The translations under genes were made by a program, and so were the position numbers. Below are positions 1 through 22,428 of a stretch of 23,997 nucleotides of DNA, in pieces. Positions within the stretch are counted from its first letter, which is position 1; the number at the start of each line of letters is the position of its first letter. The stretch lies in the IMG/VR virus record IMGVR_UViG_3300040751_002675, positions 1 through 23,997 of that record; one strand, 5' to 3'. Under the pieces are notes generated by a model that saw only the letters and a program-made list of their open reading frames with translations, made no database searches and was not told where the DNA came from. The stretch is from a virus.

Positions 1-363
1 TATTTCTTCGCCTTCTGCCGGATGTCCTTTAGGCCAACGTACTCCTTGATCAGCCCAGTAACGTTCTGTGATAGGCTGGAAGTCTAGTTGTACTGGATGT
101 CTATTGTCTTCAATGTCAACTATCTGGACATTATTTTTTGTAAGAACATCAACAATAGTATCAAGATGATTAACGTAGCCTGTGCCGCCAATACCAAAGA
201 AAGCAACTTTACCGTCCCATCTTCCCAGTTTATACTGGGGCATGTATCGAGCATAAGGCACTTCAAATTTAAGAGCATTGGCGAGCTTTCGTCGTACATC
301 GACCTCTAGTCCTTCTAGTTTGATGTTTACTTCGTCTTCAATTATTAATCTACAAGTACTCAT
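1..363 (-). CDS. uvsW: UvsW-like helicase, N-terminal part (runs off left edge)
   Basis: Only the first 121 residues are in the window. The translation starts MSTCRLIIEDEVNIKLEG and continues with a segment of the kind VRRKLANALKFEVPYARYMP, then KLGRWDGKVAFFG and GGTGYVNHL. This basic, aromatic N-terminal region ahead of the helicase core is what I associate with UvsW of marine T4-like phages. In T4, UvsW is an SF2 helicase that unwinds branched recombination intermediates and R-loops. No helicase motif (Walker A, DEAD/H) is reached before the edge, so the call rests on the N-terminal domain and on the nearby recombination genes. The start ATG overlaps the stop of the upstream 416-aa gene as ATGA, implying translational coupling. 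Confidence 0.72.
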   Translation of the reverse strand, partial: MSTCRLIIEDEVNIKLEGLEVDVRRKLANALKFEVPYARYMPQYKLGRWDGKVAFFGIGGTGYVNHLDTIVDVLTKNNVQIVDIEDNRHPVQLDFQPITERYWADQGVRWPKGHPAEGEEI

Positions 364-1610
364 GCTTTATAAACATAACCTCTTAAAAATGGACTTGCAT
401 CATCGTCATAATGCAATACCAAATCAAAGCTCTCTAAGTAAGGACCTACTTTTGTTGATAGCCTATTAGCACTACTTGTAAATGCAGCACTAGGATGCCA
501 GTCGGCCTGTAATAGTGGCTTTGGAACTTTATTATTACTAATATACACTATTTTGGTATTTTTGTCAACCAAATTGTTTAATTGTTTTTGTTGAATAAAT
601 TGATTAAAGTGTATACCTTCTCCTACATTTTCTTTTCTAAACATAACACTGATTTTGTCATTAGGAATAATGTTTGCAAACAATTTATAGAATGTAGTTA
701 GTTCGTCAAATGCATATTTTTCATCTAGTACAACTAACAGTGGAAATCTATTCAACTCAAGTATAGATTCTGCTAGCTGTTCTAATGTATACTTGTTGCT
801 GTTTACAAGTACTCTCTTTTTAGTTCTTTGAACTATTTTTGCTGTTAGAGGAGTTACTTGTCTAAAAGAATTATGTAATTCATTATCATCAAAATCTGCA
901 ATTCCTATTACGTCTCTTTGATCATAATAGTGTATAAGATTCTCTTGTGACGGTTCTCCGATTGTAGAAATAGCATAGTCAAATGCTTTGTTAGATATAT
1001 TGTTTAAGTTAAATCCTCTTAAACTAGTTACGAAATTCTTTTTGTTTTCATTCATTTTTAAAATCTTTTCATAATATTCTTTTATCTCTGTGTCAATTTC
1101 AAAATTATTTGATTCATTAAAGTTTGATAAAATTTCAAACACAGATTTTTCGTTAAAAGGAAAGTAATGAATTTTATTTTCCTTGTCATAGTCTCCTTCA
1201 CCAAGTGAACGTTTAATAGCTTCTATATTGCTAATAAGTTTCTTTTGAAAAATAAATCTTATTGCAATAAAAGGAGCCTTGTCACTTTCGTAAACTTTAT
1301 TAGGTCCTTGATCATCTACAAGTTTAACCCAGCGACTTCTATCTATTTGTCTTAGAGGTAATCTAGTCGTATTAATATTTTCTAGATCAATATTGTATTG
1401 ATCAAATTGTGATTTATAGTATAAAACTTTTTGTTTAGCAAGATCATATTGTCTATCAGTAAACCCTATACCTTTAAATGTTTGTCTAGCTAAACTATAA
1501 ACTAAGTTCTTATCAGAATTTTCGATTTGAAATAAAATTGGAGAGTCGGTTGACCCAACTTCCTTAAGACCAGCAAGTGTTTCTATTGCATCTTCGCATG
1601 AGTTTAACAT
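360..1610 (-). CDS. conserved-looking 416-aa protein of unknown function, upstream of uvsW
   Basis: I do not recognise this protein. It is 416 aa, soluble-looking, with no signal peptide or membrane segment. Visible landmarks are FTDRQYDLAKQKVLYYKSQF near residues 50-69, HYFPFNEKSVFEILSNF near 148-164, a hydrophobic beta-strand-like segment FPLLVVLDEKYAF in the second half, and a C-terminal part with DLVLHYDDD. The alternating strand/helix pattern could fit a degraded helicase-like or P-loop fold, but no Walker motif is visible. A start at 1610 fits an AAAGGAAA ribosome-binding site about 8-10 bases upstream. The gene follows a strong sigma70-type promoter and is coupled to uvsW by an ATGA overlap, suggesting a role in early replication/recombination. 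That role is inference only. Confidence 0.8.
   Translation of the reverse strand: MLNSCEDAIETLAGLKEVGSTDSPILFQIENSDKNLVYSLARQTFKGIGFTDRQYDLAKQKVLYYKSQFDQYNIDLENINTTRLPLRQIDRSRWVKLVDDQGPNKVYESDKAPFIAIRFIFQKKLISNIEAIKRSLGEGDYDKENKIHYFPFNEKSVFEILSNFNESNNFEIDTEIKEYYEKILKMNENKKNFVTSLRGFNLNNISNKAFDYAISTIGEPSQENLIHYYDQRDVIGIADFDDNELHNSFRQVTPLTAKIVQRTKKRVLVNSNKYTLEQLAESILELNRFPLLVVLDEKYAFDELTTFYKLFANIIPNDKISVMFRKENVGEGIHFNQFIQQKQLNNLVDKNTKIVYISNNKVPKPLLQADWHPSAAFTSSANRLSTKVGPYLESFDLVLHYDDDASPFLRGYVYKA
540..568 (-). promoter_or_regulatory. possible internal sigma70-type promoter ahead of uvsW
   Basis: On the minus strand TTGACA (568-563) is followed after exactly 17 bases by TATATT (545-540), five of six matches to TATAAT. 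It lies inside the 416-aa coding sequence about 180 bases upstream of the uvsW start. The match is good, but the region is AT-rich and coding, so chance is a real alternative. Confidence 0.35.
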
Positions 1611-1637: not shown

Positions 1638-1666
1638 ATTATAAACTACTATAAGGAAAAAGTCAA
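1638..1666 (-). promoter_or_regulatory. sigma70-type (early) promoter for the 416-aa gene and uvsW
   Basis: On the minus strand TTGACT (1666-1661) and a perfect TATAAT (1643-1638) are separated by exactly 17 bases. The -35 box overlaps the TGA stop of the upstream glycan gene, and the predicted start near 1631 leaves a short leader with an AAAGGAAA ribosome-binding site before the ATG at 1610. It would separate early expression of this gene and uvsW from the late-type cassette upstream. Confidence 0.8.
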
Positions 1667-2577
1667 TCTTTATCGGCGTTTTCTTCGATAATTTCTTCTA
1701 ATTTATGAAGTATTCTTTTTAGCGGAATGCCTTGAGATATTTCTTCAATGGTCCACTCAGTGTATGCAATATTGTTTGCCCATTGCTGTCTGTCTGGCAT
1801 GTCAGGATCTTCAATACGTTTTAAGTTTAAGTTAGCAACTGGTGCAGCTAGGCTTTCAGGACCTGTAAAAATAGGTACTCCATTAAGTGCTGCCTGTGTT
1901 GCAGGATTACTCGACCAATTAACTACACACCATGCATCATTTAGTTGCTTATCAAAATCAAAGTCGTCATAGGTGCCTGCTACTTGTCTTGGTTGATTAA
2001 AATATACGTCATTATAATTTTTTATAGTTTCTTTAATCCAGGTTTGATCTAAAGGACTTCTTGGATGAGGACGAATACGTATGTCTCTGTCTGTAACAGT
2101 TCTTATTTGAGTTATAATACTTTCAATCCACTCAGTGCTAGTAGGCATGTCACGCCATTGATGACTAAATTCATTTTGACCTAATACTAATACATACTTA
2201 GGCTGATATGTTCTAGGTCGCCAAGGTTGCATTTTTAATTTTAAACCTGTAAGTCTATCGCTGATGTTATCTGTTTCATGTCCGAAATATGCTTCACCGT
2301 TAATACCACCAACAGCTACCTTCCATGTTTTATTTCTTATAAGACCTCCGACTTCAAGAACAATTACTGGCTTTCCGGCTTCAGTAAACTTTTTCATTAC
2401 CTTCTGATTGCCTTTCATTCTACCGTTCCATAAGACGCTCCATATAACGGCTACATCTGGCATATCCCAGTTACCTTCTACAACTGTATGTCCTAATTTT
2501 TCTGCACCTTGTTTAAATGCTTGGAACACAGGTCCTGCGTTCATTGCACCAAAGTCTGTAAACATTCCAAATATCAT
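1663..2577 (-). CDS. capsule-polysaccharide-biosynthesis-like protein (paralogue A)
   Basis: This 304-aa protein looks like a GT-B-type capsule or surface-polysaccharide enzyme (KpsS-like). Visible parts are an N-terminal Rossmann-like half, a central QPKYVLVLGQ strand (125-134), RIRPHPRSP (167-175) with the His-Pro typical of this group, and a C-terminal block AWCVVNWSSNPATQAALNGV (215-234) followed by PIF and LNLKRIEDPD. The last block matches two other proteins in the cassette (5220-6167 and 7062-7844) in order and spacing, so the three are paralogues. Its ATG overlaps the stop of the glycosyltransferase upstream by four bases (ATGA). Family assignment is moderately sure; donor and acceptor are unknown. 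Confidence 0.65.
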   Translation of the reverse strand: MIFGMFTDFGAMNAGPVFQAFKQGAEKLGHTVVEGNWDMPDVAVIWSVLWNGRMKGNQKVMKKFTEAGKPVIVLEVGGLIRNKTWKVAVGGINGEAYFGHETDNISDRLTGLKLKMQPWRPRTYQPKYVLVLGQNEFSHQWRDMPTSTEWIESIITQIRTVTDRDIRIRPHPRSPLDQTWIKETIKNYNDVYFNQPRQVAGTYDDFDFDKQLNDAWCVVNWSSNPATQAALNGVPIFTGPESLAAPVANLNLKRIEDPDMPDRQQWANNIAYTEWTIEEISQGIPLKRILHKLEEIIEENADKD

Positions 2578-3308
2578 GATTTTACTTTTTCCACTAATTT
2601 TTCAAAATCGTCTCTGCGTTTTAATCCATGTTTGAAATGTACAAGATATGACTTTAATATACTCCTGCTCATAGGAGTTTTATGCATTCCTGGATTGATA
2701 TCATTCATTTCTTTTTCTTTAAATTCTTTAACAACAGCGCCGTATACATCGCCGTCATAAAATCTACGAAGGTCTTCTTTTTCTCTATTAACATATCTCT
2801 CTTTGTATCTTTTTACAAATTTGTCGTAGTGCTTATGATTTTTGTTTAAAGCAAAGAATCCAGTTTCGCAACTAAACATCAACGGACTAGTTTCGTCATG
2901 TTTAATAGCATGGTGCCATACTCCTAAGTGAGTTGATAATTTATCTTCAGGAATTAACGACTCAATAAATTCTTTAGTTATATGCTTTTTAGTAACTACG
3001 TCTGCATCTAACCAAACTAAAATATCTGTTTCGATATTTTCCATAGCATGAATAATTGAGTATGCTTTTTTTGCAAATGTTTTTTCAGAAGCTTTTCTTT
3101 TTTCTTTTTGAAACACAAAATAGTCAGGATCGAGATCTTCAAACGGAACTTTAACGAATCTACTATTGTTAAAAAGTTCAAAGTCTTCTACATACAATAC
3201 AATATGAATGTTTGGATCCCAATACTGTAGCATTGTTTCTAAACAGTGTTTTCCTACTTTATCATAGTAAGATTGATCAAAACTAGTTATTACCGTAACT
3301 TTACGCAT
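2574..3308 (-). CDS. DxD glycosyltransferase-like protein
   Basis: This 244-aa protein begins MRKVTVITSFDQ and carries a hydrophobic strand ending in a DAD motif (TDILVWLDADVV, DAD at 101-103). That is the nucleotide-sugar and metal-binding signature of GT-A fold glycosyltransferases. A downstream DGDVYG and a C-terminal LVHFKHGLKRR segment recall the HFK-type ending of the paralogue at 7841-8593. It is divergently paired with another paralogue at 3359-4183, which shares the MRK start and the DVL-W-DAD-V core. A ribosome-binding site ACAGGAAA lies just upstream. It heads a two-gene minus-strand unit with 1663-2577. Sugar specificity cannot be read. Confidence 0.72.
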   Translation of the reverse strand: MRKVTVITSFDQSYYDKVGKHCLETMLQYWDPNIHIVLYVEDFELFNNSRFVKVPFEDLDPDYFVFQKEKRKASEKTFAKKAYSIIHAMENIETDILVWLDADVVTKKHITKEFIESLIPEDKLSTHLGVWHHAIKHDETSPLMFSCETGFFALNKNHKHYDKFVKRYKERYVNREKEDLRRFYDGDVYGAVVKEFKEKEMNDINPGMHKTPMSRSILKSYLVHFKHGLKRRDDFEKLVEKVKS

Positions 3309-3322
3309 GAATTTCCTGTCTA

Positions 3323-3330
3323 CATAAATA
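3323..3330 (+). promoter_or_regulatory. T4-type late promoter box for the plus-strand island
   Basis: CATAAATA matches the NATAAATA late-box pattern of T4-like phages. The T4 rule (box ends at -6) puts the start near 3336, leaving a 23-base leader with GAAAGAGG before the ATG at 3359. It would make the two plus-strand genes an independent late unit. Confidence 0.65.
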
Positions 3331-3336
3331 TATACG

Positions 3337-3343
3337 TATTTAA
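3337..3343 (-). promoter_or_regulatory. possible variant late box for the minus-strand glycosyltransferase
   Basis: The minus strand reads GTTAAATACG here, the same TTAAATA variant seen just upstream of gp17. It would give a start near 3331 and a 23-base leader with ACAGGAAA before the ATG at 3308. One base differs from the NATAAATA pattern, so this is weak. Confidence 0.35.
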
Positions 3344-3358
3344 CTGAAAGAGGATACT

Positions 3359-4183
3359 ATGAGAAAATTTGCGGTTGTAACAACTTTTAATCAACAAGGT
3401 CTTGATAGGTATGCACAAAGATTTATCAACACATTTGATAAGAATATGCCAAATGAAATTGACCTTCTTATCTATAGCGAGAGAGCTAATCCTACTATTC
3501 CTAAGAATAAAAGAAGAACCGTACAGATTTTTGATGTAGAAAAACAATTACGTAATACACTAATTGCATTTAAGAAAAGATGGAAGGGAGTTCCTAAAGC
3601 AAACGGACTAGCTCCTGATGGATCTAGACTAGATGCAGGAAAAGCATTTAAATGGGACGCGGTTAGATTCAGTCATAAAGTTTACGCAATTTTTGATGCT
3701 GCAAAAGAAACAGATGCAGATGTGCTCATTTGGATGGACGCCGACACTGTTGTTCATAGTCCAGTTTCGTATGAATTTTTTGATAAGTTTATTCCATCTA
3801 ATGTATTCACAGCATTCTTAGGCAGAGGCAGGAAGTACACAGAGTGCGGATGGTATAGTATGAATTTAAAACATCCACATGCTGATAAATTTTTTGAAGA
3901 GTTTCAAAAAATGTACGACGATGCAGAAAACGGAATATTTCAAGAAAAAGAATGGCACGATAGTTATATTTTTGATGTGGTACGAAAAAGACATGAACAA
4001 GAAACTGGAACTGTAAACAAAGACATATCCAGTGGTATAGAAGGTGAAGGTCATCCTTTAATTAATAGCGAACTAGGTGCATACTTTGATCATTTAAAAG
4101 GTGATAGAAAAAGCACTGGGCAAAGCAAAGCTAAAGATTTAAAAGTTCAACGTAGCGAAGATTATTGGAAATCTGTTAGATGA
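3359..4183 (+). CDS. DxD glycosyltransferase-like protein, opposite orientation
   Basis: This 274-aa protein begins MRKFAVVTTFNQ and has the core DADVLIWMDADTVV with DAD at 127-129, indicating a GT-A fold glycosyltransferase. It differs from its paralogues by a longer segment between the first strand and the DxD (about 60-105, basic and Gly/Lys-rich) and by a C-terminal region with GAYFDHLKGDRK. A ribosome-binding site AGAGG precedes the ATG by six bases, below a late-promoter box. Its TGA overlaps the ATG of the next gene (ATGA), so the two form a tight operon. It is one of only three plus-strand genes in the window; together these suggest a separately acquired pair. Sugar specificity is unknown. 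Confidence 0.72.
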   Translation: MRKFAVVTTFNQQGLDRYAQRFINTFDKNMPNEIDLLIYSERANPTIPKNKRRTVQIFDVEKQLRNTLIAFKKRWKGVPKANGLAPDGSRLDAGKAFKWDAVRFSHKVYAIFDAAKETDADVLIWMDADTVVHSPVSYEFFDKFIPSNVFTAFLGRGRKYTECGWYSMNLKHPHADKFFEEFQKMYDDAENGIFQEKEWHDSYIFDVVRKRHEQETGTVNKDISSGIEGEGHPLINSELGAYFDHLKGDRKSTGQSKAKDLKVQRSEDYWKSVR

Positions 4184-4725
4184 AAAAAGGTCTTTTAGAT
4201 ATTGCTACACGTATTATCTTAGAAAACAAATGCACTCGTCTGTGTGAAATAGGAACACACCGAGGAAAGACAGCCGTACAATTAATTGATTTTTGCTGTA
4301 AAAACTTTCCTGGCAAAATTATTTCTTATGAAGGATTTGATGTATTTGATTATGCATGGAATAATGAAGAATTTAACCGTAAAGAAGTAAACGGAAAAAA
4401 TGGTGCAAAGTACGGATTAGTAAAACGTGATATAATGCACTATGAAAAAAAATATCGTAATTTAAAAGTAAAGTTACATAGAGGATTTACACACGAAACT
4501 TTGAAATATAAAAAATATGATTTCGTTTATATTGATGGCGGTCACAGTTATGATACTGTAAAACACGATTACGAAAAAGTTAAAGATAGTAAAGTTATAT
4601 TATTTGACGATTGCCAAGAGCCAACTGTTTTTAAATTTACTGAAGAACTAAGACAAAACGGTATTGATATACAATACATTGACACAGGAACTCCTCACAA
4701 ATGGGGATTAATCATTAACAATTAA
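4180..4725 (+). CDS. class I SAM-dependent methyltransferase-like protein (plus-strand copy)
   Basis: This 181-aa protein has a SAM-binding glycine motif CEIGTHRGKT (22-31) and a second conserved block DFVYIDGGHSYDTVKHDY (114-131) ending in VILFDD (139-144). This arrangement is typical of the Methyltransf_24 type often found in glycan loci. It is clearly paralogous to the minus-strand gene 4708-5223, which shares YIDGGHSY-TVKHDY and ILFDD. The two genes converge and overlap tail to tail by 18 bases. Start is coupled to the upstream glycosyltransferase by ATGA. A role in O-methylating a sugar is plausible given the neighbours; the substrate is not determined. Confidence 0.72.
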   Translation: MKKGLLDIATRIILENKCTRLCEIGTHRGKTAVQLIDFCCKNFPGKIISYEGFDVFDYAWNNEEFNRKEVNGKNGAKYGLVKRDIMHYEKKYRNLKVKLHRGFTHETLKYKKYDFVYIDGGHSYDTVKHDYEKVKDSKVILFDDCQEPTVFKFTEELRQNGIDIQYIDTGTPHKWGLIINN

Positions 4726-4899
4726 CCACATACGTTTTTTACGATGTGTTAATTCTAATTCTTTTCCTTTACCAATTTCATTTATAGCTTCTTGAACTCC
4801 TGGAAGATTGTAGTCATCAAATAATATAATTTTTGAGTCTTTAACCATACTATAATCGTGCTTAACAGTAGCATAACTATGTCCTCCGTCAATATAAAC
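4525..4899. repeat. imperfect inverted repeat formed by two convergent methyltransferase genes
   Basis: Positions 4525-4614 on the plus strand and the complement of 4810-4899 align base for base without gaps at roughly three quarters identity by eye (about 21 differences in 90). They encode the same YIDGGHSY to ILFDD block. The arms face each other across the tail-to-tail gene junction, so this is an inverted gene duplication rather than a mobile-element end. Confidence 0.7.
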
Positions 4900-5223
4900 A
4901 AAGCTATAACGTATCGGAGATGTTAGTGTTTGTTGTGTATATCCTTCAACTATATCATATGTAAAGTTTTTATATTGTCTACGCAACCGATTTAATTTTG
5001 CTATTATTTTTTCTTTATCGGGTACCGACTTACCGTTCCATTCTTCAGTAGGAACTTCTTCAAATGCATCGTATCCTTTATAGTGCAATCTATTTCTATA
5101 TTCAAGAGCAATACTACACATCCATCGTGCTGTGATGCCTTTGTGGCATCCTATCTCCATAATACTTGTTGGCTTGTATTCTCGTAATAAAGGTTCTACG
5201 ACTTCACATTGTGCAGGAATCAT
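4708..5223 (-). CDS. class I SAM-dependent methyltransferase-like protein (minus-strand copy)
   Basis: This 171-aa protein carries MEIGCHKGIT (22-31) as SAM-binding loop and SFVYIDGGHSYATVKHDY (107-124) followed by IILFDDYNLPG. It is the paralogue of 4180-4725. The glycine motif and the IDGGH block occupy matching positions, while the middle and C-terminus differ (RKKRMWLIVND end). It is the last gene of the overlapping minus-strand glycan operon: its ATG overlaps the stop of 5220-6167 by four bases. Probable glycan or small-molecule methyltransferase; the substrate is unknown. Confidence 0.72.
   Translation of the reverse strand: MIPAQCEVVEPLLREYKPTSIMEIGCHKGITARWMCSIALEYRNRLHYKGYDAFEEVPTEEWNGKSVPDKEKIIAKLNRLRRQYKNFTYDIVEGYTQQTLTSPIRYSFVYIDGGHSYATVKHDYSMVKDSKIILFDDYNLPGVQEAINEIGKGKELELTHRKKRMWLIVND
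4720..4754. other. hairpin at the convergent methyltransferase junction
   Basis: AATTAACCACAT and ATGTGTTAATT pair as an 11-bp stem with one bulged C around a T-rich loop. It spans the overlap of two convergent genes. It might act as a weak two-way terminator, but the T run is in the loop rather than after the stem, so the function is doubtful. Confidence 0.35.
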
Positions 5224-6167
5224 TTTATATATTGTCTCATGTGTGACCAGGCTTCGCCGCTTTTTAGTTCATCAAAGTTCCAATGAAACATTGATAGTCT
5301 TTGTAACCAAGGTGTTCTTTCTAACATAATAGGATTTTCTATTATAGATAAATCGGTGTTTGCAATATCACGTGCTTGACTAAAACTAGGATCAGTTAAA
5401 AATACAGGAACACCTTCGATTGCTGCGCCAACAGCCGGACTTGAGTTGTGTCCAACTACCGCCCAACAGTTTCTAAGATAATCTTCTAAGTTTGTATCAT
5501 AAGGACTAATTGTAACATTTCTAATATTTTTAAGTTTGTTTTTAGGATCTCTAAGATTACTTAATATTCGTCTTGTGTTTTTGTCTCCCGGGTGTCCTCT
5601 AACAATTATTGGCCTGTCTGTATACTTTTTAATTTCTGTTATTGTTTCTAAAGCCCATTCTTGTATATCTTTGCCTTTCATACTCCAACCGCCGTTGCGT
5701 TGCAAACATAACAAAATATGATTACCAGAAGTACGCCAGTCTTTAACTTTAATGCCAATAGTTTTTCTAATACTATTCCAACGCTTAGGATCTAGATTAT
5801 CGTCACAATATAAACCTGTTGTAGGAAATATACCGTTAAAACTATATCTCAAATAATGATGAGGATTATCAGTATTTTTATACAAAAATAGATTACTATC
5901 TGCTGTAATAGTATATGCATTATTTTTTCTTTGCATGTCTATTACGTTTTTACGTATTTGTAAATGAGGCACACGTTGTCCTATTTCGTGTACCCATCCT
6001 TGTATAAGTGCTACTTGACTTGGCAAATGCATGCCTTCGTGAACCATACCATAGTCGCCGACTTTGTTAACGCCTTCTATAAAGTTTTTTAGAATGGCAG
6101 GCTTTTCTAAATTTTTATTATTTGCCGGAATACCTCCACTGTATGCAATTACGTTTATTCTACTCAT
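5220..6167 (-). CDS. capsule-polysaccharide-biosynthesis-like protein (paralogue B)
   Basis: This 315-aa protein shows the same two-part plan as 1663-2577. An N-terminal half has GWVHEIGQRVPHLQIR. A strand HILLCLQRNGGWSMKG (150-165) follows, then ITEIKKYTDRPIIVRGHPGD (176-195) with the His-Pro pair, and a C-terminal block CWAVVGHNSSPAVGAAIEGV (234-253) plus DLSIIENP. That order resembles KpsS/capsule export-type glycosyltransferases, which add sugars to surface polymers. It overlaps both neighbours by four bases. The linker ITEIKKYTDRPI is nearly identical to one in 7062-7844, so these two are the closest pair. Exact reaction unknown. Confidence 0.65.
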   Translation of the reverse strand: MSRINVIAYSGGIPANNKNLEKPAILKNFIEGVNKVGDYGMVHEGMHLPSQVALIQGWVHEIGQRVPHLQIRKNVIDMQRKNNAYTITADSNLFLYKNTDNPHHYLRYSFNGIFPTTGLYCDDNLDPKRWNSIRKTIGIKVKDWRTSGNHILLCLQRNGGWSMKGKDIQEWALETITEIKKYTDRPIIVRGHPGDKNTRRILSNLRDPKNKLKNIRNVTISPYDTNLEDYLRNCWAVVGHNSSPAVGAAIEGVPVFLTDPSFSQARDIANTDLSIIENPIMLERTPWLQRLSMFHWNFDELKSGEAWSHMRQYIK

Positions 6168-7069
6168 AGCATACCTTTTACTTTTTTCCAGTATTTTTCA
6201 TTAGCATTAATACATTCGTCTAATGCATTAGGATATGATTGAGCTTCTTCAAGTGCAGGAATCCAGTCTTTAGATCTTGCAAATGTTGGTTCGTGCTTCA
6301 TAGCATTAAACTTACTACTCCATGGATCAACTACTACAACTCGTTTGCCTAGTATTGTTGCCCAATACGCACCATGATAACTGTTTGTAACTACTATGTT
6401 AGCACTACCTAATATTTCTGCAACTAGCTCTAAGTTTTGTCCTGTGTTTACAAATCTAGGAATTGGAGTATCACCAAAATCGCTTGCTTTGATTAATTGT
6501 TTTTTATGTTCAAACCAAATAATGTCATTAGTAACATTATATTTTTTTCTAAATGCAGGGTGCATACAACTTGCACATGGCACCCATTCATATGTGTCTG
6601 TTACATCTCTTATGCCAACAAGATCAAAATTTCTTAAAAATCTAGGAAATTTTTGTTTTGCTGCGCCTTTGATATTATGACCTGCACCCCAAATAATTTT
6701 TGTTCCATTATGGGGTTTTAAATTTCTTAATGCTTCTTTAAATATATCGTCAAACTTGTTCATAAAGGTTTTATGAACTTCTTGATTATTTGCATAACTA
6801 CATTCCCAAGCATTATCATACATATGCTGTAATCTTGTTTCGTCGGAATTTCTTGTAATAGTGTCTACAAACTCGCCAAATAATTCGTTTTCAATTAGGC
6901 CGCCACCGCCTACTACTATAGGCAAATTACTTTCATATGTTGTTAGATGAGGATTTGCAATATCTACTGTAATTAAATCCTCCTCTTTCATAAAATATCT
7001 TAGAGGATTACTATACCAGTCTCCTATATTATTTTGATCAGTTCTAAATACCTGTACTACTTTACTCAT
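6164..7069 (-). CDS. polysaccharide pyruvyl transferase-like protein (copy 1)
   Basis: This 301-aa protein has the hallmarks of the PS_pyruv_trans family, which transfers a pyruvyl ketal from phosphoenolpyruvate to a sugar. It shows VVGGGGLIENE (52-62), IIWGAGHNIKG (125-135), FDLVGIRD (148-155), and VVTNSYHGAYWATILGKRV (226-244). The segment EWVPCASCMHP (161-171) has a CxxC pair that is also present in the plus-strand copy at 10063-10842. The start is GDWYSNPLRY-like as in the paralogue (GDYYSNPSLY). It overlaps its upstream and downstream genes by eight and four bases. The family call is good; whether it truly pyruvylates is not established. Confidence 0.75.
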   Translation of the reverse strand: MSKVVQVFRTDQNNIGDWYSNPLRYFMKEEDLITVDIANPHLTTYESNLPIVVGGGGLIENELFGEFVDTITRNSDETRLQHMYDNAWECSYANNQEVHKTFMNKFDDIFKEALRNLKPHNGTKIIWGAGHNIKGAAKQKFPRFLRNFDLVGIRDVTDTYEWVPCASCMHPAFRKKYNVTNDIIWFEHKKQLIKASDFGDTPIPRFVNTGQNLELVAEILGSANIVVTNSYHGAYWATILGKRVVVVDPWSSKFNAMKHEPTFARSKDWIPALEEAQSYPNALDECINANEKYWKKVKGML

Positions 7070-7844
7070 CTGTGGTCTCCATAAGTATATTATACGCTTT
7101 GCCTGATTTCATTTCGTCAATGTGAAATTGACCATAAGCTAGGTGACAAGCCCATTTAAAAATTAAATCTTGGTCAAAAAATGTTGGTGTTTCTATTAAT
7201 GACAAATCTTTGTCACACACCGGGTCTGCTGCATTAGGTGCTAGTGTAAAAGAAGGTATTCCTGATAATACACTTTCTGTTGCTGCAATACTGTTGTATG
7301 TTACTGTACACCAAGCATCTTTAAAGTCTTCAAAGATGGGTCTATTTACCCTTGACGGTCTATCTGTTTTTTCTCTTACTACAATAGGTCTATCTGTATA
7401 TTTTTTTATTTCTTGAATTGTATCTTTTTTCCATTGTTCTAGATTAATACCGTAGAACTTACAAGGTTTTTCTGAAGGTGTAACTAATAATACGTTTTTA
7501 CCTGAACTTTGTATTTTAGGTATAGGTTGTTTTAGTGCTTCCCAACGATCACTAGGCCTATCGATAATTTTACTATGCTGTACAGCGTTTTTAACAATTC
7601 TGTGATACCATTTCCAACCACTAGGATTAACTGTACATTTGTAGTTTCCAAAATAACCACTATCCATATAATAGAAAGTATGCTGTTTCTCAATACACCA
7701 ATTAATTAGTTTTCGCTTGCCCATACTACGTATCATAATAGGTTTGTTGCCAAAATCATAGACATAATCTTCTATAGATAAATTTGCACCTTGGGCAAAC
7801 ATGTTTACATATTCATCTGTTAAATTTTTACTTAAACAAATCAT
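7062..7844 (-). CDS. capsule-polysaccharide-biosynthesis-like protein (paralogue C), lacking the His-Pro motif
   Basis: This 260-aa protein is the shortest of three paralogues. It keeps the strand NVLLVTP (117-123), TIQEIKKYTDRPIVVRE (142-158) and the C-terminal block AWCTVTYNSIAATESVLSGI (177-196) followed by PSF, DLSLIETP and FHIDEMKSGKAYNIL. Where the other two have RPHPR or RGHPG it reads REKTDRPSR, so the conserved His-Pro is gone. This could mean altered or lost catalysis, or a non-catalytic partner. Start and end overlap the neighbours by four and eight bases. The paralogy is clear; the activity is uncertain. Confidence 0.62.
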   Translation of the reverse strand: MICLSKNLTDEYVNMFAQGANLSIEDYVYDFGNKPIMIRSMGKRKLINWCIEKQHTFYYMDSGYFGNYKCTVNPSGWKWYHRIVKNAVQHSKIIDRPSDRWEALKQPIPKIQSSGKNVLLVTPSEKPCKFYGINLEQWKKDTIQEIKKYTDRPIVVREKTDRPSRVNRPIFEDFKDAWCTVTYNSIAATESVLSGIPSFTLAPNAADPVCDKDLSLIETPTFFDQDLIFKWACHLAYGQFHIDEMKSGKAYNILMETTDE

Positions 7845-8593
7845 TTTTCTTGTCTTACTCTACGATCAAATCTTTCTAAAACTTTTTCAACACTTTTGCC
7901 TTTGCGTATACCTTCAATTGCTTTGTCTATATGTTTAAAAATACTTTCATTAACTTTACGACTTGCTTTAAAGTGTCGCATGTATGTTCCTAATATTGTT
8001 TCGTATATAGGACTTAAACTTTTACGTTCTGGGTGCAAGTCTCTACAAGTATGTCCGTGATCTTCAGCGTATCTAATACAATGTGCTAGTACATAACTAT
8101 CATTAGGTTTTACAAAAATCTTATTGTCTAGTATTAATCTTTCTTCGTATACTCGAATATATTCTTTTACAAATTCGTTATAGAACTTATGATTTTTGTT
8201 TATTATAAAAAAACAACTATCACTATGCGAACCAAACTTATCGTGTGTAACACCAATATATGTAACTAACTCGTCGGCATTTAAAGTATCTAAAAAATCT
8301 TTAGAAAGTGTTCTAAAACAAATAATATCTGCATCTATAAAAACTAACTTATCACAGTCTTTTGAAAATGCATCAATAATACTATATGCTTTATATGCAA
8401 AACCTCTAGCTCTGCTTTGACCTAAATCATCTAAAAACTTACTAACTCTGTTGTCAATTTGTAAAGAATCTTTAATATCTTCAGAATATACATTTACATC
8501 AACAGGGAAGAATTTTTTAAATGTCTCTAACATTTTAAAGCCGATCGAGTCGTAGTATTCCTGACTCATTGATGTAAATGCAAAGTAGTTCAT
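7841..8593 (-). CDS. DxD glycosyltransferase-like protein
   Basis: This 250-aa protein has a GT-A-type DxD strand DKLVFIDADIICF (81-93, DAD at 87-89) preceded by GFAYKAYSIIDAF, matching the KKAYSIIHAM element of 2574-3308. It ends with GTYMRHFKASRK and a basic tail. These features place it with the cassette's other DxD glycosyltransferases. The start shares a base with the stop of the previous gene (TAATG) and its stop overlaps the next ATG by four bases, so it is inside the coupled operon. Donor sugar unknown. Confidence 0.72.
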   Translation of the reverse strand: MNYFAFTSMSQEYYDSIGFKMLETFKKFFPVDVNVYSEDIKDSLQIDNRVSKFLDDLGQSRARGFAYKAYSIIDAFSKDCDKLVFIDADIICFRTLSKDFLDTLNADELVTYIGVTHDKFGSHSDSCFFIINKNHKFYNEFVKEYIRVYEERLILDNKIFVKPNDSYVLAHCIRYAEDHGHTCRDLHPERKSLSPIYETILGTYMRHFKASRKVNESIFKHIDKAIEGIRKGKSVEKVLERFDRRVRQEK

Positions 8594-9264
8594 TACTTCA
8601 TCATATCAAACAGTTCTTGTTTCCATAGGTCTGCAAACTCACAATCTCTATAGTTTTCAAACCAAGGTCCGCCTTCTGTGTAGTGTATTAGTTTAGGTGT
8701 TTCGATATCGTTGTATACGCCAACTAGATAATTCCAAGTATGATCAAGCTCGCCAATTTCTTCGTCTTTTAACCAACTAAAGCGATGTAAGTATGCTCCG
8801 TTAATTTCAGGATCATTAACTAGGTCCATAGTAAGTTTTTTATTACTAGGATGCGCACAGTTAAACAACATCACACTGGACCAATTCTTGCGAGGATAAA
8901 CAGTCTGTTTTTGTCCATCCATTTTATATCCTGCCTCTACTTTGTAATCGTGTTGCACACACATAACAGCATAACGGTCATCTGCTTGATCAAACAGTTC
9001 TTTGATATCTGTAGTAAGAATCATATCACAATCCATGAACAAGGCCCAACCTTTAAAATCAGCAAGTTCTGGTATAAGGAATCTTGTAAATGTAAATTCT
9101 GTTGACGCAAGTTTATCAATAGGACGAGTGTACCATCCTGCATCTCTTAGTTCTTGTTGTTTTAATGGACGAACGTCTGCTCCTGGTTGCTTGTTTAAAA
9201 TACTGTGTTTGCAAACTTGATATGCAATGTCCTCTCTAGTGTCATAACCTACAAATACTTTCAT
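8593..9264 (-). CDS. GT8-like glycosyltransferase
   Basis: This 223-aa protein begins MKVFVGYDTREDIAYQVCKH, continues with TEFTFTRFLIPEL (55-67) and GWALFMDCDMILTTDIKEL (72-90), where DCD (78-80) is the DxD metal/donor site. It then shows VMLFNCAHPSNKKLT and a C-terminal ETPKLIHYTEGGPWFENY. That order, with a late His-containing H-Y-T-GGPW element, matches GT8-like transferases found in phage and bacterial glycan clusters. Both ends share a base with their neighbours through TAATG. It is distinct from the other DxD proteins here. The acceptor may be the sugar made by the nucleotidyltransferase encoded just upstream (inference). Confidence 0.75.
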   Translation of the reverse strand: MKVFVGYDTREDIAYQVCKHSILNKQPGADVRPLKQQELRDAGWYTRPIDKLASTEFTFTRFLIPELADFKGWALFMDCDMILTTDIKELFDQADDRYAVMCVQHDYKVEAGYKMDGQKQTVYPRKNWSSVMLFNCAHPSNKKLTMDLVNDPEINGAYLHRFSWLKDEEIGELDHTWNYLVGVYNDIETPKLIHYTEGGPWFENYRDCEFADLWKQELFDMMK

Positions 9265-10022
9265 TAGTCTCTTCTTTCTATATCATCTTCTGTGAGTTCT
9301 ACACCCATCCATACTTCGATAACTTTGGCTGTTTTGTCGCCTATGTTAGTTGCCTTGTGCCAAGTGTTAACAGGAATGTCTATGCTGTCACCGGATGACA
9401 AATGTGTAGTTGTACGCCAGCCGTGTTCTGATTCTAATATCATTTCAATTTCGCCTTCAACAACATGCCAATGCTCTGATCGTTTAAAATGTCTTTGATC
9501 GCTCAATGCTTTACCTGCATCAAATGCAAGTTTCTTTGTAGCCCAGCCATCACCTTTGTCTAGTACAGTGTATCTACCCCAGGCACGCTCTGTGGTAGGT
9601 TGACTCCATTCTTTTAGGATCCAGCTGCTCGAGTTTTTCTTATCTTCGCCGCCGACACCAAAAACGTACTCTACATCTGCATGTGAAAGCATTTCGGGAA
9701 TATTGTGCTTTGTTCTATCTCCGCCGTTGGCAAAAATAATTTTATGGCTATCGCCCCAACCTAACTTAACTTGGTTAATAGCGTCAATAGCTGTGTTGTC
9801 ACTGTCGTCAAATGTTACTACTTCGTCAACAACTTCTAACATTTCTATTACGCTAACACGTTCCTGTAACGGCATAAAAGGTCTACCCTTTTTACGTGTA
9901 AGCCACTCGTCTGAATTTACACCAACAATTAAATATTGGCCTAAATTCTTTGCTGCTTTAAAATAGGCAATGTGCCCTGAATGTAACGGGTCAAACCCGC
10001 CTGTAACTAAAACTATGTTCAT
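9264..10022 (-). CDS. nucleotidyltransferase-cupin fusion protein
   Basis: Residues 1-140 are a cytidylyltransferase-type domain: VTGGFDPLHSGHIAYF with HxGH at 14-17, GVNSDEWLTRKKGRPF (34-49), and a SSSW element (131-134) near where the ISSTR motif normally lies. Members activate small sugars or alcohols with CTP or ATP. Residues 144-250 form a cupin like the C-terminal part of ManC/mannose-6-phosphate isomerase: ERAWGRYTVL, RHFKRSEHWHVVEGEIEMIL (178-197), and DIPVNTWHKATN. The fusion could couple activation and isomerisation of one sugar. It heads an overlapping operon of seven genes down to 4708. No Shine-Dalgarno is visible before the ATG; a late box sits five bases upstream. The domain calls are firm, the substrate is unknown. 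Confidence 0.8.
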   Translation of the reverse strand: MNIVLVTGGFDPLHSGHIAYFKAAKNLGQYLIVGVNSDEWLTRKKGRPFMPLQERVSVIEMLEVVDEVVTFDDSDNTAIDAINQVKLGWGDSHKIIFANGGDRTKHNIPEMLSHADVEYVFGVGGEDKKNSSSWILKEWSQPTTERAWGRYTVLDKGDGWATKKLAFDAGKALSDQRHFKRSEHWHVVEGEIEMILESEHGWRTTTHLSSGDSIDIPVNTWHKATNIGDKTAKVIEVWMGVELTEDDIERRD

Positions 10023-10027
10023 ACTGA

Positions 10028-10034
10028 TATTTAT
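10028..10034 (-). promoter_or_regulatory. late promoter box giving a predicted leaderless mRNA
   Basis: The minus strand reads ACATAAATATCAGTATG. The box ends at 10028, so the T4 rule (last A at -6) puts the start at 10022, exactly the A of the ATG. No Shine-Dalgarno precedes the gene. Confidence 0.5.
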
Positions 10035-10050
10035 GTGCGCATATAACTAG

Positions 10051-10057
10051 GTAAATA
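10051..10057 (+). promoter_or_regulatory. variant late box upstream of the plus-strand pyruvyl transferase
   Basis: The plus strand reads GGTAAATATAATCATG. The TAAATA core ends at 10057, giving a predicted start at 10063, the A of the ATG. The first box base differs from ATAAATA. It mirrors the box of the divergent gene on the other side. Confidence 0.4.
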
Positions 10058-10062
10058 TAATC

Positions 10063-10842
10063 ATGAACACAGTTATATTACATAGACCAGACACTACTAA
10101 TCCTGGTGATTATTACTCTAATCCTAGTTTATATTTCGATTTAGGTAACGTAAGTATACACGATATTAAAGATCCAAGAAGTGTAAACAAAATTAAAGAC
10201 AATACAAATTTAATTATTGGTGGAGGAGGATTAGTTCGCCATAGAAAGTTTGATCAAAGAATTATAGAAGCCGTTGAGCAAAAATCAAGATTTAATAGTT
10301 TAATATTATGGGGAGCAGGACATAACTATCGTCCTAAAGAAGAAACAGAAAATTGGCACAATCCTTACTATTTAGATTTATTTGACGCTGTAGGAATTCG
10401 TGATTATTATTACGAAAGACGGGATAATTGGGTTCCGTGTGCTAGTTGTATGCACCCTATATTTGATGAAAATTTTAAAATTACTAACGATACAGTATAT
10501 TATGTTCATCAAATGAACAAAAAAATTAGAGAAAACTCATTAACAGATGTTACTTACAAGTATAACAATATTGATTTTGAAAGTGCTATTGAGTTTTTAG
10601 GTAGTTCACGAAAAATAGTAACAGATAGTTATCATGGTGCTTATTGGGGTATGCTTTTAGGAAAAGATGTAACTGTAGTATCTTGGAGTACAAAGTTTGA
10701 TTATTTTAAACATCCTGTACACAAGTTATACAAATACAATTCTCATAAAATTAAACCATCTAATACTTATAGAGTGTTAGACGAATATAGACAAGCTAAC
10801 ATAAATTTTTATAAAAAAGTAAAACTTGCAATGAAGTTATGA
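10063..10842 (+). CDS. polysaccharide pyruvyl transferase-like protein (copy 2, opposite strand)
   Basis: This 259-aa protein shares the fingerprint of 6164-7069: NPGDYYSNPSLYFD (13-26), IIGGGGLVRH (51-60), LILWGAGHNYR (80-90), FDAVGIRD (107-114), NWVPCASCMHPIFD (122-135), and IVTDSYHGAYWGMLLGKDV (185-203). It therefore belongs to the PS_pyruv_trans group, with the same CxxC pair. It is shorter than copy 1 mainly between the GGGGL and WGAGHN motifs. It is the lone plus-strand gene between two minus-strand units and overlaps the FkbM-like gene tail to tail by 34 bases. Probable enzyme of glycan decoration; the substrate is unknown. Confidence 0.75.
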   Translation: MNTVILHRPDTTNPGDYYSNPSLYFDLGNVSIHDIKDPRSVNKIKDNTNLIIGGGGLVRHRKFDQRIIEAVEQKSRFNSLILWGAGHNYRPKEETENWHNPYYLDLFDAVGIRDYYYERRDNWVPCASCMHPIFDENFKITNDTVYYVHQMNKKIRENSLTDVTYKYNNIDFESAIEFLGSSRKIVTDSYHGAYWGMLLGKDVTVVSWSTKFDYFKHPVHKLYKYNSHKIKPSNTYRVLDEYRQANINFYKKVKLAMKL

Positions 10843-11465
10843 TAAAAACTACTATTTGATGCTGTCTTATTTTTAAATGCATTTTTATCTAACAGTGCAA
10901 AATCTAAATCATATATTTTATATTCGAGACTAGATAGGTAATTGAAAATGTCTCCACTATCATAATCATAGTTTTTCATATGAACGTCTGCACATTCAAA
11001 ATAAATTAATGGATTATTATCTTTTATAGTTTTTTCACAGCCTTGCATAGTATTAAGTTCGTTACCTTCTACGTCAATTTTAATTAATCCTATATTTGAA
11101 AAATTAAAATTATCTAGCTTGTCAACCTGTGCTATAATTTCTTGATATCTTCCACTATCTTTTTGTTTGGTGAGGCCGCTCCACCCTCCTTGATCCAAGT
11201 CTACAAAAAAGGAACTTTCACCTTTGTAGTTACTCAGTGCAATAGTATGTACAGTAACATCTTTATCTTTTTTATATCGAGACCTTGTAGTACTAGCAAT
11301 AGATGGTATTGCTTCAAACAAATGTGCTTCTCTAGTTTTATTTTTTAAGAAAATATTTCGATACCAGTTACCTTTTCTAGCACCAATATCAATTACTGTC
11401 TTATTTTTATCTAGATTTTTTTCTAACCAAGGAAAAATTACACCATCTTCTTTTCTCTTATACAT
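10809..11465 (-). CDS. FkbM-family methyltransferase-like protein
   Basis: This 218-aa protein has the SAM-binding motif TVIDIGARKGNW (23-34), an acidic FEAIP (50-54), ALSNYKGESSFFVD (76-89) and the family signature LIKIDVEGNELNTMQG (127-142), which is diagnostic of FkbM-type methyltransferases. These act as O-methyltransferases on sugars and polyketides. Its ATG overlaps the stop of the upstream methyltransferase by eight bases, and its 3' end overlaps the convergent pyruvyl transferase by 34 bases. Family call is good; the exact substrate is unknown. Confidence 0.8.
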   Translation of the reverse strand: MYKRKEDGVIFPWLEKNLDKNKTVIDIGARKGNWYRNIFLKNKTREAHLFEAIPSIASTTRSRYKKDKDVTVHTIALSNYKGESSFFVDLDQGGWSGLTKQKDSGRYQEIIAQVDKLDNFNFSNIGLIKIDVEGNELNTMQGCEKTIKDNNPLIYFECADVHMKNYDYDSGDIFNYLSSLEYKIYDLDFALLDKNAFKNKTASNSSFYHNFIASFTFL

Positions 11466-11925
11466 TCATACAAATCCCTAATATATAATCTCTATTTCTA
11501 GTTATAGTAACATTACTAAAATTCTTTTTACAAACATATTCTAAAAATGATTCGTTAAAAGAATGTTTCCAGCCATACTTTTCTTTTTTCTTTTTAGCAA
11601 GAGCTAAGATAAACCAAGTATTTGCATTGTTTTTATACTTTTCAATTACATTAATAGGGTCGTCTACATATTCTAGTACACCTAGTATTAAACCTATATC
11701 ATATACTTTATCTATTTTAACTGTTTGTGTATTTAAGTCAGTTTTAATGTCTGCATACTCTGTTCTGTCTAAACCTAGATAATCGTTGCAATCAACAACT
11801 TCTAATATAGATTTATTGCCGCAGCCAATGTCTAGTATAGAAGAATTTTCTGGAATAAAATCTTTAATCCAAAGATTTCTTGCTTTCCAAAGTTTTGTAT
11901 ATTGATCTATCTTAGAGGGTTGCAT
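11458..11925 (-). CDS. class I SAM-dependent methyltransferase-like protein
   Basis: This 155-aa protein carries a clear SAM-binding motif SSILDIGCGNKS (28-39) followed by DYLGLDR, DIGLILGVLEYVDDP in the usual motif IV region and a helical C-terminus. It is short for a full methyltransferase but keeps the core fold. Its first 14 bases overlap the end of the uvsY-like gene in another frame, so translation passes directly from the recombination genes into the glycan cassette. It may methylate a sugar made by the neighbours (inference). Confidence 0.72.
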   Translation of the reverse strand: MQPSKIDQYTKLWKARNLWIKDFIPENSSILDIGCGNKSILEVVDCNDYLGLDRTEYADIKTDLNTQTVKIDKVYDIGLILGVLEYVDDPINVIEKYKNNANTWFILALAKKKKEKYGWKHSFNESFLEYVCKKNFSNVTITRNRDYILGICMNV

Positions 11926-12367
11926 CTTCCATACCTGCTACACGTAGTTTAACAACGTTAGTAATTTGCCATTGCTTTTGATCAAGTGCTTTAAGCACAC
12001 CTAACCATTTGTTACGCATCAATGCAAACTCGTTGATGATCTTTTCATAATCAACAACGTCTGCCTCACCGTCAACGTATTTTTCAACGTCACGGCTAGA
12101 CAGAGCTCGCTGATAGTGTTCAAGATATTTTTTAAAGTATGTGCTACGTAGCCTACGCAATTCAATATTAAGATAATTAAGGATTGCTTCAATCTCTTGA
12201 AGTTGATTAAATCTATGCTCTACAATTCCCGGCATATCTGCCGCTGCTCTTTCAACATTACCTGTTAATTTGCATTCTTTCCTTGCTTGCATTAGTTCCA
12301 GTTCAAAATGTGCTACAGCATCTGGAATTTTACTCACATCTCGAGATATTTCGCTATACCAACCCAT
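11912..12367 (-). CDS. uvsY: UvsY-like recombination mediator
   Basis: This 151-aa, mostly helical, charged protein resembles UvsY of marine T4-like phages: MGWYSEISRDVSKIPDA start, ELRRLRSTYFKKYLEHY in the middle, RDVEKYVDGEADV, NEFALMRNKWLGVLKALD and a WQITNVVKLRVAGMEDA ending. T4 UvsY is about 137 aa, binds ssDNA, and loads UvsX onto gp32-coated DNA. The size and the operon position behind uvsX support the call. I recognise no enzyme motif, as expected for a mediator. Similarity is judged from memory of the family. Confidence 0.72.
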   Translation of the reverse strand: MGWYSEISRDVSKIPDAVAHFELELMQARKECKLTGNVERAAADMPGIVEHRFNQLQEIEAILNYLNIELRRLRSTYFKKYLEHYQRALSSRDVEKYVDGEADVVDYEKIINEFALMRNKWLGVLKALDQKQWQITNVVKLRVAGMEDATL

Positions 12368-12370
12368 TAA

Positions 12371-12601
12371 TTAATCCCAATCAAAATCTTCATCTACGTA
12401 ATCTGCATCATCAAGATCTAAATAATAGTTTATGGCTGCATCTAGTGCGCTGTCAGAACCTAATGCACTAGTAAACTGATCATCTTGTATTCCGTAATCA
12501 GCCATTAGGTCGACATATCTTTCAGCAGCCATTTCTATACTTTTTTTATCTAGATATTCTTTGAATAGAGTCCAAATCTCAACAATTTGACTTTCATCCA
12601 T
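12371..12601 (-). CDS. small acidic protein between uvsX and uvsY, 76 aa
   Basis: I place the start at 12601 (MDESQIVEIW) rather than the upstream in-frame ATG at 12646. A good GAGGAG ribosome-binding site lies inside the end of uvsX seven bases before this ATG, and the earlier start would overlap uvsX heavily. The protein is helical with a repeat of acidic residues at its end (YYLDLDDADYVDEDFDWD). It has no known motif. Position between uvsX and uvsY suggests a co-expressed accessory of the recombination machinery, but no function can be given. Confidence 0.75.
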   Translation of the reverse strand: MDESQIVEIWTLFKEYLDKKSIEMAAERYVDLMADYGIQDDQFTSALGSDSALDAAINYYLDLDDADYVDEDFDWD

Positions 12602-12605
12602 AAAG

Positions 12606-13697
12606 TTACTCCTCGATTGGTTGTACATCATCGACTTCAACGTCAATATCGATGTCGTCGTCAGAGGTATTTACCACAGTTGCTTCTTTTGTAAGGTAAT
12701 CTGACATAACCGTATCGAGTAGTTCACCAGTCCATTTCTTACGATAGTCTAGTAGTTCTTCACCTTCGCTTGTAACATACTTCAAACGGTTACCGCTCTT
12801 TTCAATTACACCTTTTGCTTCAAACAATTCGACTAGTCCGCTATATGGATTCATTCCTGTTTCATAAGGAATCTTAACTTGTACGCCCTCGAAAGGTTTT
12901 GCGTAACGAGTTTTCATTACTTTACAACCTGCTCTAATACCACGTACTTCGCTAATTTTATTACCATCTTCATCTTCTTTTAGTTTTAGTTTTTTCATTG
13001 CTACAACAATTGAAGATGCATAGATAAAGCCTTGACCACCTGAAATCTTATCATCTGGATCAAACATATCTTGTGATGCGTATGTATGATTAGTACATAC
13101 TAAGCCTACGTTATGCGAACCGATCATATTAACTGTGTTACGTACAAGTGAAGTCAATGCCTTAGGCTTACGACCCATATCACCTTTCATATCACCTTTG
13201 TTAAACTGATCAACGTCAGTAGGTGTTAGCAACATACCTAATGAGTCAACTACAAATAGTACTTTAGGACGGTCTTCTTCCGCCATTTCTTTGTAATCTT
13301 TCATAAACAACGAAATAGTTTTTGCTACATCGTCAATCATGCTCATATTCAGTTTCATTAACTTGTCTTCTGATGTATCTACATCTAGAGCATGTAGCCA
13401 AGACTCGTCGAGTGCGTTCTCTGAGTCAATTAAAACTACAAAGATGCCTTGCTGTTGTGCGTATTTTACAATGTTACCTGCACAGATATATGATTTACCT
13501 GCACCAGATTCACCTGCAAATACAGTTACCTTACCCATCGGAACACCTTTGTGAAAGTCTCCTGAAATAAGATAGTTGAGTGCATAGTTACCCGTACTAA
13601 TCCAATCTGTAGGATCGTTAAATCCTGCACTCATACCTGTAATGGATTTAGTTAACGAAGTTCGAAACTTTGTTGGGTCAAATGCTTTATTCGCCAT
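12606..13697 (-). CDS. uvsX: UvsX, RecA-like recombinase
   Basis: This 363-aa protein has the RecA core: Walker A GESGAGKS (62-69), VVLIDSENALDE (87-98), a Walker B strand VLFVVDSLGML (146-156), CTNHTYASQD (201-210) in the L2-like region and SGGQGFIYASSIVVAMKK (219-236). It pairs homologous DNA strands on gp32- and UvsY-bound ssDNA in T4-type recombination-dependent replication. T4 UvsX is about 390 aa, so the length fits. The start at 13697 has TAGGAG six bases upstream. The C-terminal tail is strongly acidic (SDDDIDIDVEVDD), as in other RecA-like proteins. It lies two genes from gp32 (one if the micro-ORF is not real). Confidence 0.93.
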   Translation of the reverse strand: MANKAFDPTKFRTSLTKSITGMSAGFNDPTDWISTGNYALNYLISGDFHKGVPMGKVTVFAGESGAGKSYICAGNIVKYAQQQGIFVVLIDSENALDESWLHALDVDTSEDKLMKLNMSMIDDVAKTISLFMKDYKEMAEEDRPKVLFVVDSLGMLLTPTDVDQFNKGDMKGDMGRKPKALTSLVRNTVNMIGSHNVGLVCTNHTYASQDMFDPDDKISGGQGFIYASSIVVAMKKLKLKEDEDGNKISEVRGIRAGCKVMKTRYAKPFEGVQVKIPYETGMNPYSGLVELFEAKGVIEKSGNRLKYVTSEGEELLDYRKKWTGELLDTVMSDYLTKEATVVNTSDDDIDIDVEVDDVQPIEE

Positions 13698-22363: not shown

Positions 22364-22368
22364 AATAA

Positions 22369-22375
22369 TATTTAT
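22369..22375 (-). promoter_or_regulatory. late promoter box giving a predicted leaderless mRNA
   Basis: The minus strand reads GGATAAATATTATTATG. The last A of the box is at 22369, so the T4 rule gives a start at 22363, the A of the ATG. No Shine-Dalgarno is present. It follows directly after the gp19 terminator. Confidence 0.6.
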
Positions 22376-22402
22376 CCATATGAATAATGTACGTAGATAA
22401 TA

Positions 22403-22428
22403 AAAAAGGGACCTCACGGCCCCTTTTT
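22403..22428 (-). terminator. intrinsic terminator after gp19
   Basis: AAAAAGGG pairs with CCCTTTTT (8 bp), with two more C-G pairs inside across one mismatch and a 4-base loop, and a run of T on the minus strand. It sits about 20 bases after the gp19 stop. Confidence 0.82.

Follow-up and report, generated by a model that had tools for sequence, protein, structure and literature searches.

A putative surface-glycan cassette with an ordered six-gene core between uvsY and uvsW in a clade of uncultured marine jumbo phages

The viral record IMGVR_UViG_3300040751_002675 of IMG/VR, analyzed here over its whole length of 23,997 bases (the window), carries a cassette of 14 genes between uvsY and the pair formed by p416 and the start of uvsW (Table 1). 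Six of these genes form a core that recurs in related viruses in a nearly constant order, and the cassette is best read as encoding enzymes of a surface glycan. Upstream of it, the minus strand encodes, in this order, a tail sheath, two tail-tube proteins, a gp4-like head-closure protein, a terminase and a head protein, followed by a gp32-type single-stranded DNA-binding protein, UvsX, a 91-amino acid (aa) open reading frame (ORF) and UvsY. All 14 cassette ORFs (1663-11925) are present with intact frames, most neighbors overlap, and overlaps or gaps are of 50 bp or less. This dense packing, the enzyme classes and the identities of uvsY and uvsW had been proposed in an earlier reading of the DNA (the original prediction), and each was borne out, down to the overlap of exactly 14 bases (11912-11925) between uvsY and the first methyltransferase gene, c14. 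The N-terminus of UvsW also has 44% identity to the product of a Phosso gene annotated as DNA helicase.

The cassette comprises four methyltransferases, four DxD glycosyltransferases, two pyruvyl-transferase-like proteins, three KpsC-like proteins and one nucleotidyltransferase-cupin. Five of the products (c01, c02, c03, c06 and c08) have no Pfam match. Paralogy within the cassette groups c02 with c03 and c09, c01 with c06 and c08, c04 with c05, and c07 with c12; it is on this basis that c02 and c03 are assigned to the DxD glycosyltransferases and c01, c06 and c08 to one capsule-like family. The nucleotidyltransferase c11 matches rfaE_dom_II with an E-value of 2.5e-21, which lies under that model's equivalog cut-off.

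Table 1. Genes of the cassette and its two anchors in the window
Gene	Assignment	Coordinates	Strand	Basis and remarks
uvsW	N-terminal part, runs off contig	1..363	-	58-90% identity to uvsW of relatives
p416	helicase-like, right anchor, not a glycan gene	360..1610	-	26 viral contigs; model and fold search
c01	KpsC-like putative CMP-sugar glycosyltransferase, core	1663..2577	-	paralog of c06/c08; RPHP kept; 21/21 relatives
c02	GT-A-like DxD glycosyltransferase, accessory	2574..3308	-	paralog of c03/c09; 3/21 relatives
c03	DxD glycosyltransferase, core	3359..4183	+ (opposite strand here)	21/21 relatives
c04	methyltransferase, accessory	4180..4725	+	Methyltransf_24, Pfam E 6e-12
c05	methyltransferase, convergent paralog of c04	4708..5223	-	Methyltransf_24, E 5e-10; 36% identity to c04
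c06	KpsC-fold putative CMP-sugar transferase, core	5220..6167	-	QXXXG replaces QXXXD; RGHP kept; fold comparison
c07	polysaccharide pyruvyl-transferase-like, accessory	6164..7069	-	PS_pyruv_trans, PF04230, E 4e-8
c08	divergent KpsC-like protein, core	7062..7844	-	paralogy; without QXXXD or RXHP
c09	GT8-like glycosyltransferase, accessory	7841..8593	-	PF01501, E 2.6e-4, below Pfam cut-off; paralog of c03
c10	GT8-like glycosyltransferase, core	8593..9264	-	PF01501, E 8e-6; 21/21 relatives
c11	HldE-C/TagD-like nucleotidyltransferase fused to cupin, core	9264..10022	-	PF01467, PF01050; 19/21 relatives
c12	polysaccharide pyruvyl-transferase-like, accessory	10063..10842	+ (opposite strand)	PF04230, E 4e-6; 34% identity to c07
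c13	FkbM-type methyltransferase, variable part	10809..11465	-	PF05050, E 2e-16
c14	small methyltransferase-like protein, variable part	11458..11925	-	Methyltransf_23, PF13489, E 0.003, below cut-off
uvsY	left anchor	11912..12367	-	phrog_231, E 4e-17

With p416 and UvsX as baits we recovered 106 viral contigs, 31 of which span the whole interval from uvsY to p416; 21 of these, all from marine viruses, are distinct. The interval measures 6.1-9.5 kb and holds 8-12 genes in the 21 relatives, compared with 10.3 kb and 14 genes in the window. Each of c01, c03, c06 and c10 is present in every relative and c11 in 19, while c08 is found in 20, as a separate gene in 15 and fused to c10 in 5 more. The order c11-c10-c08-c06-c03-c01-p416-uvsW is strict in 17 of the 21; three differ only by an extra upstream paralog of c06 and one (L021) is rearranged. 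At least one core family occurs in 54 of the 58 loci that have at least 4 kb of sequence after uvsY. Across all loci the c10-c08 fusion, a single protein of about 508-587 aa, was seen 15 times (including L001, L003, L007, L016, L036, L040, L052, L059, L068, L072 and L074), pointing to a joint function of c10 and c08.

The part of the interval next to uvsY varies between relatives, whereas the core does not. Ninety-two ORFs of the variable part match methyltransferases, GT25 (lipopolysaccharide, LPS), GDP-mannose dehydratase, UDP-glucose dehydrogenase, sulfotransferase, GT29 sialyltransferase or aminotransferase. Judged by gene content, the comparison shows tailoring genes (for methyl-, pyruvyl- and extra glycosyltransferases) being gained and lost around the six-enzyme core. 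The interval thus has what marks phage surface-glycan (LPS-gene) islands: clustered glycosyltransferase and tailoring genes, with a content that differs between relatives. It is formally conceivable that the site is simply a hypervariable landing place that traps host glycan genes without a selected role, as the changing variable part and the duplications inside the cassette would allow, but the order-conserved core, the motifs of c06 and c01 that are invariant at 41-55% identity and the 14 open frames of the window make such passive carriage hardly probable at all. The cassette is not random cargo, and relatives of the same clade almost always have a glycan island in this interval. The hypervariability that the original prediction had named as one possible outcome of the comparison applies to the uvsY side and not to the core; identical content in all relatives, which it had named as the sign of an ordinary core region, is found in part, through that conserved core.

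Cultured outgroups differ. The uvsY and uvsW genes are adjacent in Cassandra, separated by one gene in Mosig and Vibrio phage 2.275.O, and by three in Phosso, and no core glycan family lies between them in any of these four. The island is therefore an insertion relative to the outgroups, as had been proposed, and a conserved feature within the clade.

The position of c03 is constant in the 21 relatives, its strand being that of uvsX in 13 and the opposite one in 8. An invertible, phase-variable segment around c03 and c04 was considered and rejected, as the window has no long inverted repeats flanking them. The only long inverted repeat (4522-4610/4814-4902; 89 nt, 78% complementary, 203-nt spacing) lies within the convergent genes c04 and c05. 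A search for riboswitches or other structured RNA control gave no Rfam match, promoter-like matches equaled the shuffled expectation, and terminator-like matches were fewer than that expectation.

Sequence searches of the PDB with profiles of c06, c01, c03 and p416 returned nothing usable, and fold comparison was needed. The AlphaFold2 model of c06 (predicted local distance difference test score 94) has as its nearest solved structures KpsC, WbbB and KrkA, which are retaining 3-deoxy-D-manno-octulosonic acid (Kdo) transferases. KpsC ranked first (Foldseek E 8.8e-8) and was superimposed by VIA with a Z score of 14.5 over 244 residues at a root-mean-square deviation of 3.5; sequence identity to the Kdo transferases in structural alignment is about 12-15%. 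These transferases share two catalytic features, a QXXXD motif supplying the nucleophilic Asp and a (K/R)XHP motif that binds cytidine monophosphate (CMP) (PMC10148158, PMC12887879). RXHP is invariant in the aligned members of c06 (31/31) and c01 (26/26). The fifth residue of QXXXD, in contrast, is Gly in c06 (G160), in all 31 aligned members and, by pattern, in all 47 core copies. In a profile alignment this Gly falls on the Asp of 11 KpsC/KpsS modules, all of which have QXXXD (hhalign probability 93, with an E-value that refers to a single comparison); a pairwise alignment of c06 with the published KpsC peptide was set aside, as its score did not exceed that of shuffled sequence. QXXXD is retained in 17 divergent paralogs of c06 from these phage loci and in the aligned homologs from SAR11 bacteria apart from one lone gene (in L113), so the loss of the Asp sets the core c06 family apart. 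When held against the retaining β-Kdo transferases (GT99, GT107 and GT140), c06 has the fold and RXHP but not the nucleophile. Its assignment as a CMP-sugar transferase is supported by the modeled fold and the nucleotide motif. The related c01 keeps RPHP and the Gln, usually has an acidic residue two positions past that Gln, and aligns with the KpsC/KpsS modules at an hhalign probability of 95.6; in c08 neither QXXXD nor RXHP was found.

Counterparts of the core exist in the chromosomes of SAR11 bacteria. Of 162 SAR11-order genomes, 92 (~57%) have homologs matched by the c10 profile, which are full-length and mostly present in one copy; 149 genomes of the Neomarinimicrobiota phylum gave one clear cellular match. 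In mainstream SAR11 genomes (L163 and others) a HemY_N-like gene precedes c10, which faces two TPR proteins of ~600 aa. Two SAR11 genomes, G153 and G169 (L136 and L137), have c10, c08, a 93-aa ORF, a TPR protein, c03 and c06 consecutively. The surroundings are housekeeping genes, with ribulose-P epimerase, purH, HAD and LysE genes to one side of the row and thioredoxin, lon-domain and ftsK genes to the other. The site resembles the cassette in its families and in the order c10-c08...c03-c06, but the TPR protein is added, c11 and c01 are missing there, and c03 and c06 are swapped. PF05159 was searched for in six genomes, either of the SAR11 order or carrying a relative, and found in only one. 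The lone QXXXG gene mentioned above, in a SAR11 single-cell genome (L113:9992-10900), is 48% identical to the core type and stands by itself between guaA and redoxin/engA genes; it is likely, on sequence grounds, to be a phage-to-host transfer. In the c10 tree a clade of eight SAR11 sequences falls inside the fork holding 22 of the 24 phage c10 sequences. The simplest reading is that genes have been exchanged between the phage clade and some SAR11 lineage, both the direction of exchange and the host being inferred. These chromosomal counterparts and the KpsC-like fold also bear out the resemblance to cellular capsule loci that had been pointed out at the start.

The original prediction had looked to pelagiphages and cyanophages for relatives, and this placing does not hold. 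UvsX is nearest to Phosso, Vibrio phage 2.275.O, Atu_ph07 and RaK2-like jumbo phages, and TerL to PA5oct-like phages. One relative, whose contig measures 335,231 bp (411 picked ORFs, 10 tRNAs), shows the same gene order all the way from the tail sheath to uvsW, cassette included. It is because of this 335-kb contig that we call the clade a jumbo-phage clade (over 200 kb), the window itself being only a 24-kb fragment. The contig is filed in a Neomarinimicrobiota metagenome-assembled genome (MAG), which appears to hold two near-identical copies of the phage locus, on this contig and on one of 153 kb (L114 and L115; PBPT01000016.1 and PBPT01000082.1).

Among the neighboring genes, p416 is the immediate upstream neighbor of uvsW in every case where both genes are complete, with a 4-bp overlap in the window. 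Its C-terminal half (residues 231-416) resembles the SF2 helicase domains of XPB, UvrB and T4 UvsW (Z 9.8-11.8), and p416 may therefore be a degenerate helicase that acts together with UvsW. No match was found by tblastn among 50,697 phage records; its profile matches a 222-aa ORF of Phosso. The 91-aa ORF (12371-12646) between uvsX and uvsY overlaps uvsX by 41 bp and has 81 matching ORFs in relatives and no family match. The adjacent tail-tube genes (20999-22417 and 22447-23088) are paralogs, and one of the two products is considerably extended at its C-terminus.

Several known systems resemble the cassette in part. The host recognition cluster of pelagimyophages is a variable island rich in glycosyltransferases, GT8 being the commonest family, and has been interpreted as changing the host O-chain or surface and avoiding coinfection (PMC7029224). 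Like the cassette, it places glycosyltransferases in an island of variable content in a marine myophage. It lies, however, between VrlC and gp14 together with tail fibers, whereas the cassette, which is part of a jumbo-phage lineage, lies between uvsY and p416/uvsW without fiber genes and includes a fixed core of six genes. Pelagibacter phage Mosig (MT647606, 124.8-130.7 kb) has contiguous c08/c06-like, c10-like (45%), c03-like (35%) and methyltransferase genes, but this block adjoins RuvC/nrd genes, and the gap between its uvsY and uvsW holds a single 2-oxoglutarate oxygenase gene. CcrColossus and other Caulobacter giant phages have a KpsC-like gene next to a c10-like gene (28-36%); this pair lies between tail and lysis genes, and the full core was not found in those phages. 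Four putative glycosyltransferase orthogroups are listed among the shared genes of a recently described aquatic large-phage lineage (PMC12619734). At the level of single enzymes, KpsC (GT107), WbbB (GT99) and KrkA (GT140) have the fold in common with c06 and (K/R)XHP in common with both c06 and c01, but they possess the catalytic Asp where c06 has Gly.

What the cassette acts upon is constrained by its topology. There is no membrane span in the 14 cassette proteins and a single borderline one in 282 ORFs of relatives, and the enzymes would therefore be cytoplasmic, acting on a lipid-linked precursor of the host, a virion protein or DNA. The cassette encodes neither an exporter nor a flippase, polymerase or lipid-carrier transferase and is thus not a complete capsule or O-antigen locus. 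DNA is a very improbable acceptor. Phage glycosyltransferases are able to add sugars to modified DNA bases, here to evade restriction, and the cassette does lie beside recombination genes, but PF00303 (thymidylate synthase/hydroxymethylase) has no match on the 335-kb contig, nor on 19 of the 20 related viral contigs, and the KpsC fold, the pyruvyl transferases and the FkbM methyltransferases point to polysaccharides. The PF00303 matches were in one divergent contig of 289 kb and, as the sole match in the Neomarinimicrobiota MAG, on a contig other than that of 335 kb. PF12851 (Tet_JBP) gave no match, nor did it in the control genomes.

We tentatively consider, at close to even chances, that the enzymes remodel or cap an envelope glycan of SAR11-like hosts. 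During infection c11 would make an activated sugar, c10 and c03 would add sugars from nucleoside diphosphate donors, c06 and c01, with their RXHP pocket kept, would add CMP-linked sugars, and methyl and pyruvyl groups would cap the chain. The glycan would be assembled at the inner membrane, on a lipid-linked precursor of the host, and would leave through the host's own export machinery; with its coat altered in this way, the cell would have a hidden receptor, rival phages would be blocked, and progeny would not adhere to debris. Because the core families have chromosomal counterparts in SAR11, in two genomes at one site, the most likely product is an envelope glycan of host type in a variant form. 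Several points weigh against this. Acceptor, donor and product are all deduced from sequence. The 335-kb relative was binned with Neomarinimicrobiota, and the assignment to a SAR11-like host is indirect. Homologs of c10 also occur in other Alphaproteobacteria (58 of 385 genomes of a class sample, some of them weak), the fork joining SAR11 and phage c10 has a support of only 88/81, and the c08, c06 and c03 homologs of G153 and G169 are only 26-34% identical, so that the shared site may be old. Soluble enzymes could, moreover, equally glycosylate virion proteins without any export, and the position of the c06-c10 pair of CcrColossus just after tail genes would fit this.

Virion glycosylation is accordingly a real possibility, although one we regard as somewhat short of even. 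The same enzymes would decorate capsid, tail or fiber proteins in the cytoplasm, as a shield or for altered adsorption, and export machinery is neither needed for this nor present. The core is kept in a structural and replication block beside tail sheath, tube and terminase genes, and precedents exist in mycobacteriophages (as cited in PMC12619734) and in the capsid glycan enzymes of chlorovirus PBCV-1 (PMC11571054). The CcrColossus arrangement in particular keeps this explanation close behind that of a host-envelope glycan. It sits less well with the counterparts in SAR11 chromosomes, where no virion exists, and with the frequency of LPS-type and nucleotide-sugar enzymes (GT25, GDP-mannose dehydratase) in the variable part. 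Either outcome agrees with the surface-glycan cassette of the original prediction, which had allowed for effects on virion or host-surface glycans. A more specific proposal, possible but on balance doubtful, is that c06 represents a new glycosyltransferase family with a CMP-sugar-binding KpsC-type fold, which, having lost its nucleophile, probably works by another (e.g., inverting) mechanism, and is the invariant center of a phage-run pathway traded with SAR11 that makes a phage-specific surface or virion glycan.

Glycosyltransferase islands of marine phages are already known; what is new is the site, the ordered core, the gene grouping shared with SAR11 and a KpsC-like family that lacks the nucleophile. 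KpsC-like enzymes without the expected catalytic residue provide a testable set. If our interpretation is correct, a widespread clade of uncultured jumbo phages would maintain its own glycan pathway as a fixed part of its genome layout, not as cargo picked up now and then, and this clade would be linked to SAR11, among the most abundant bacterial groups of the ocean.

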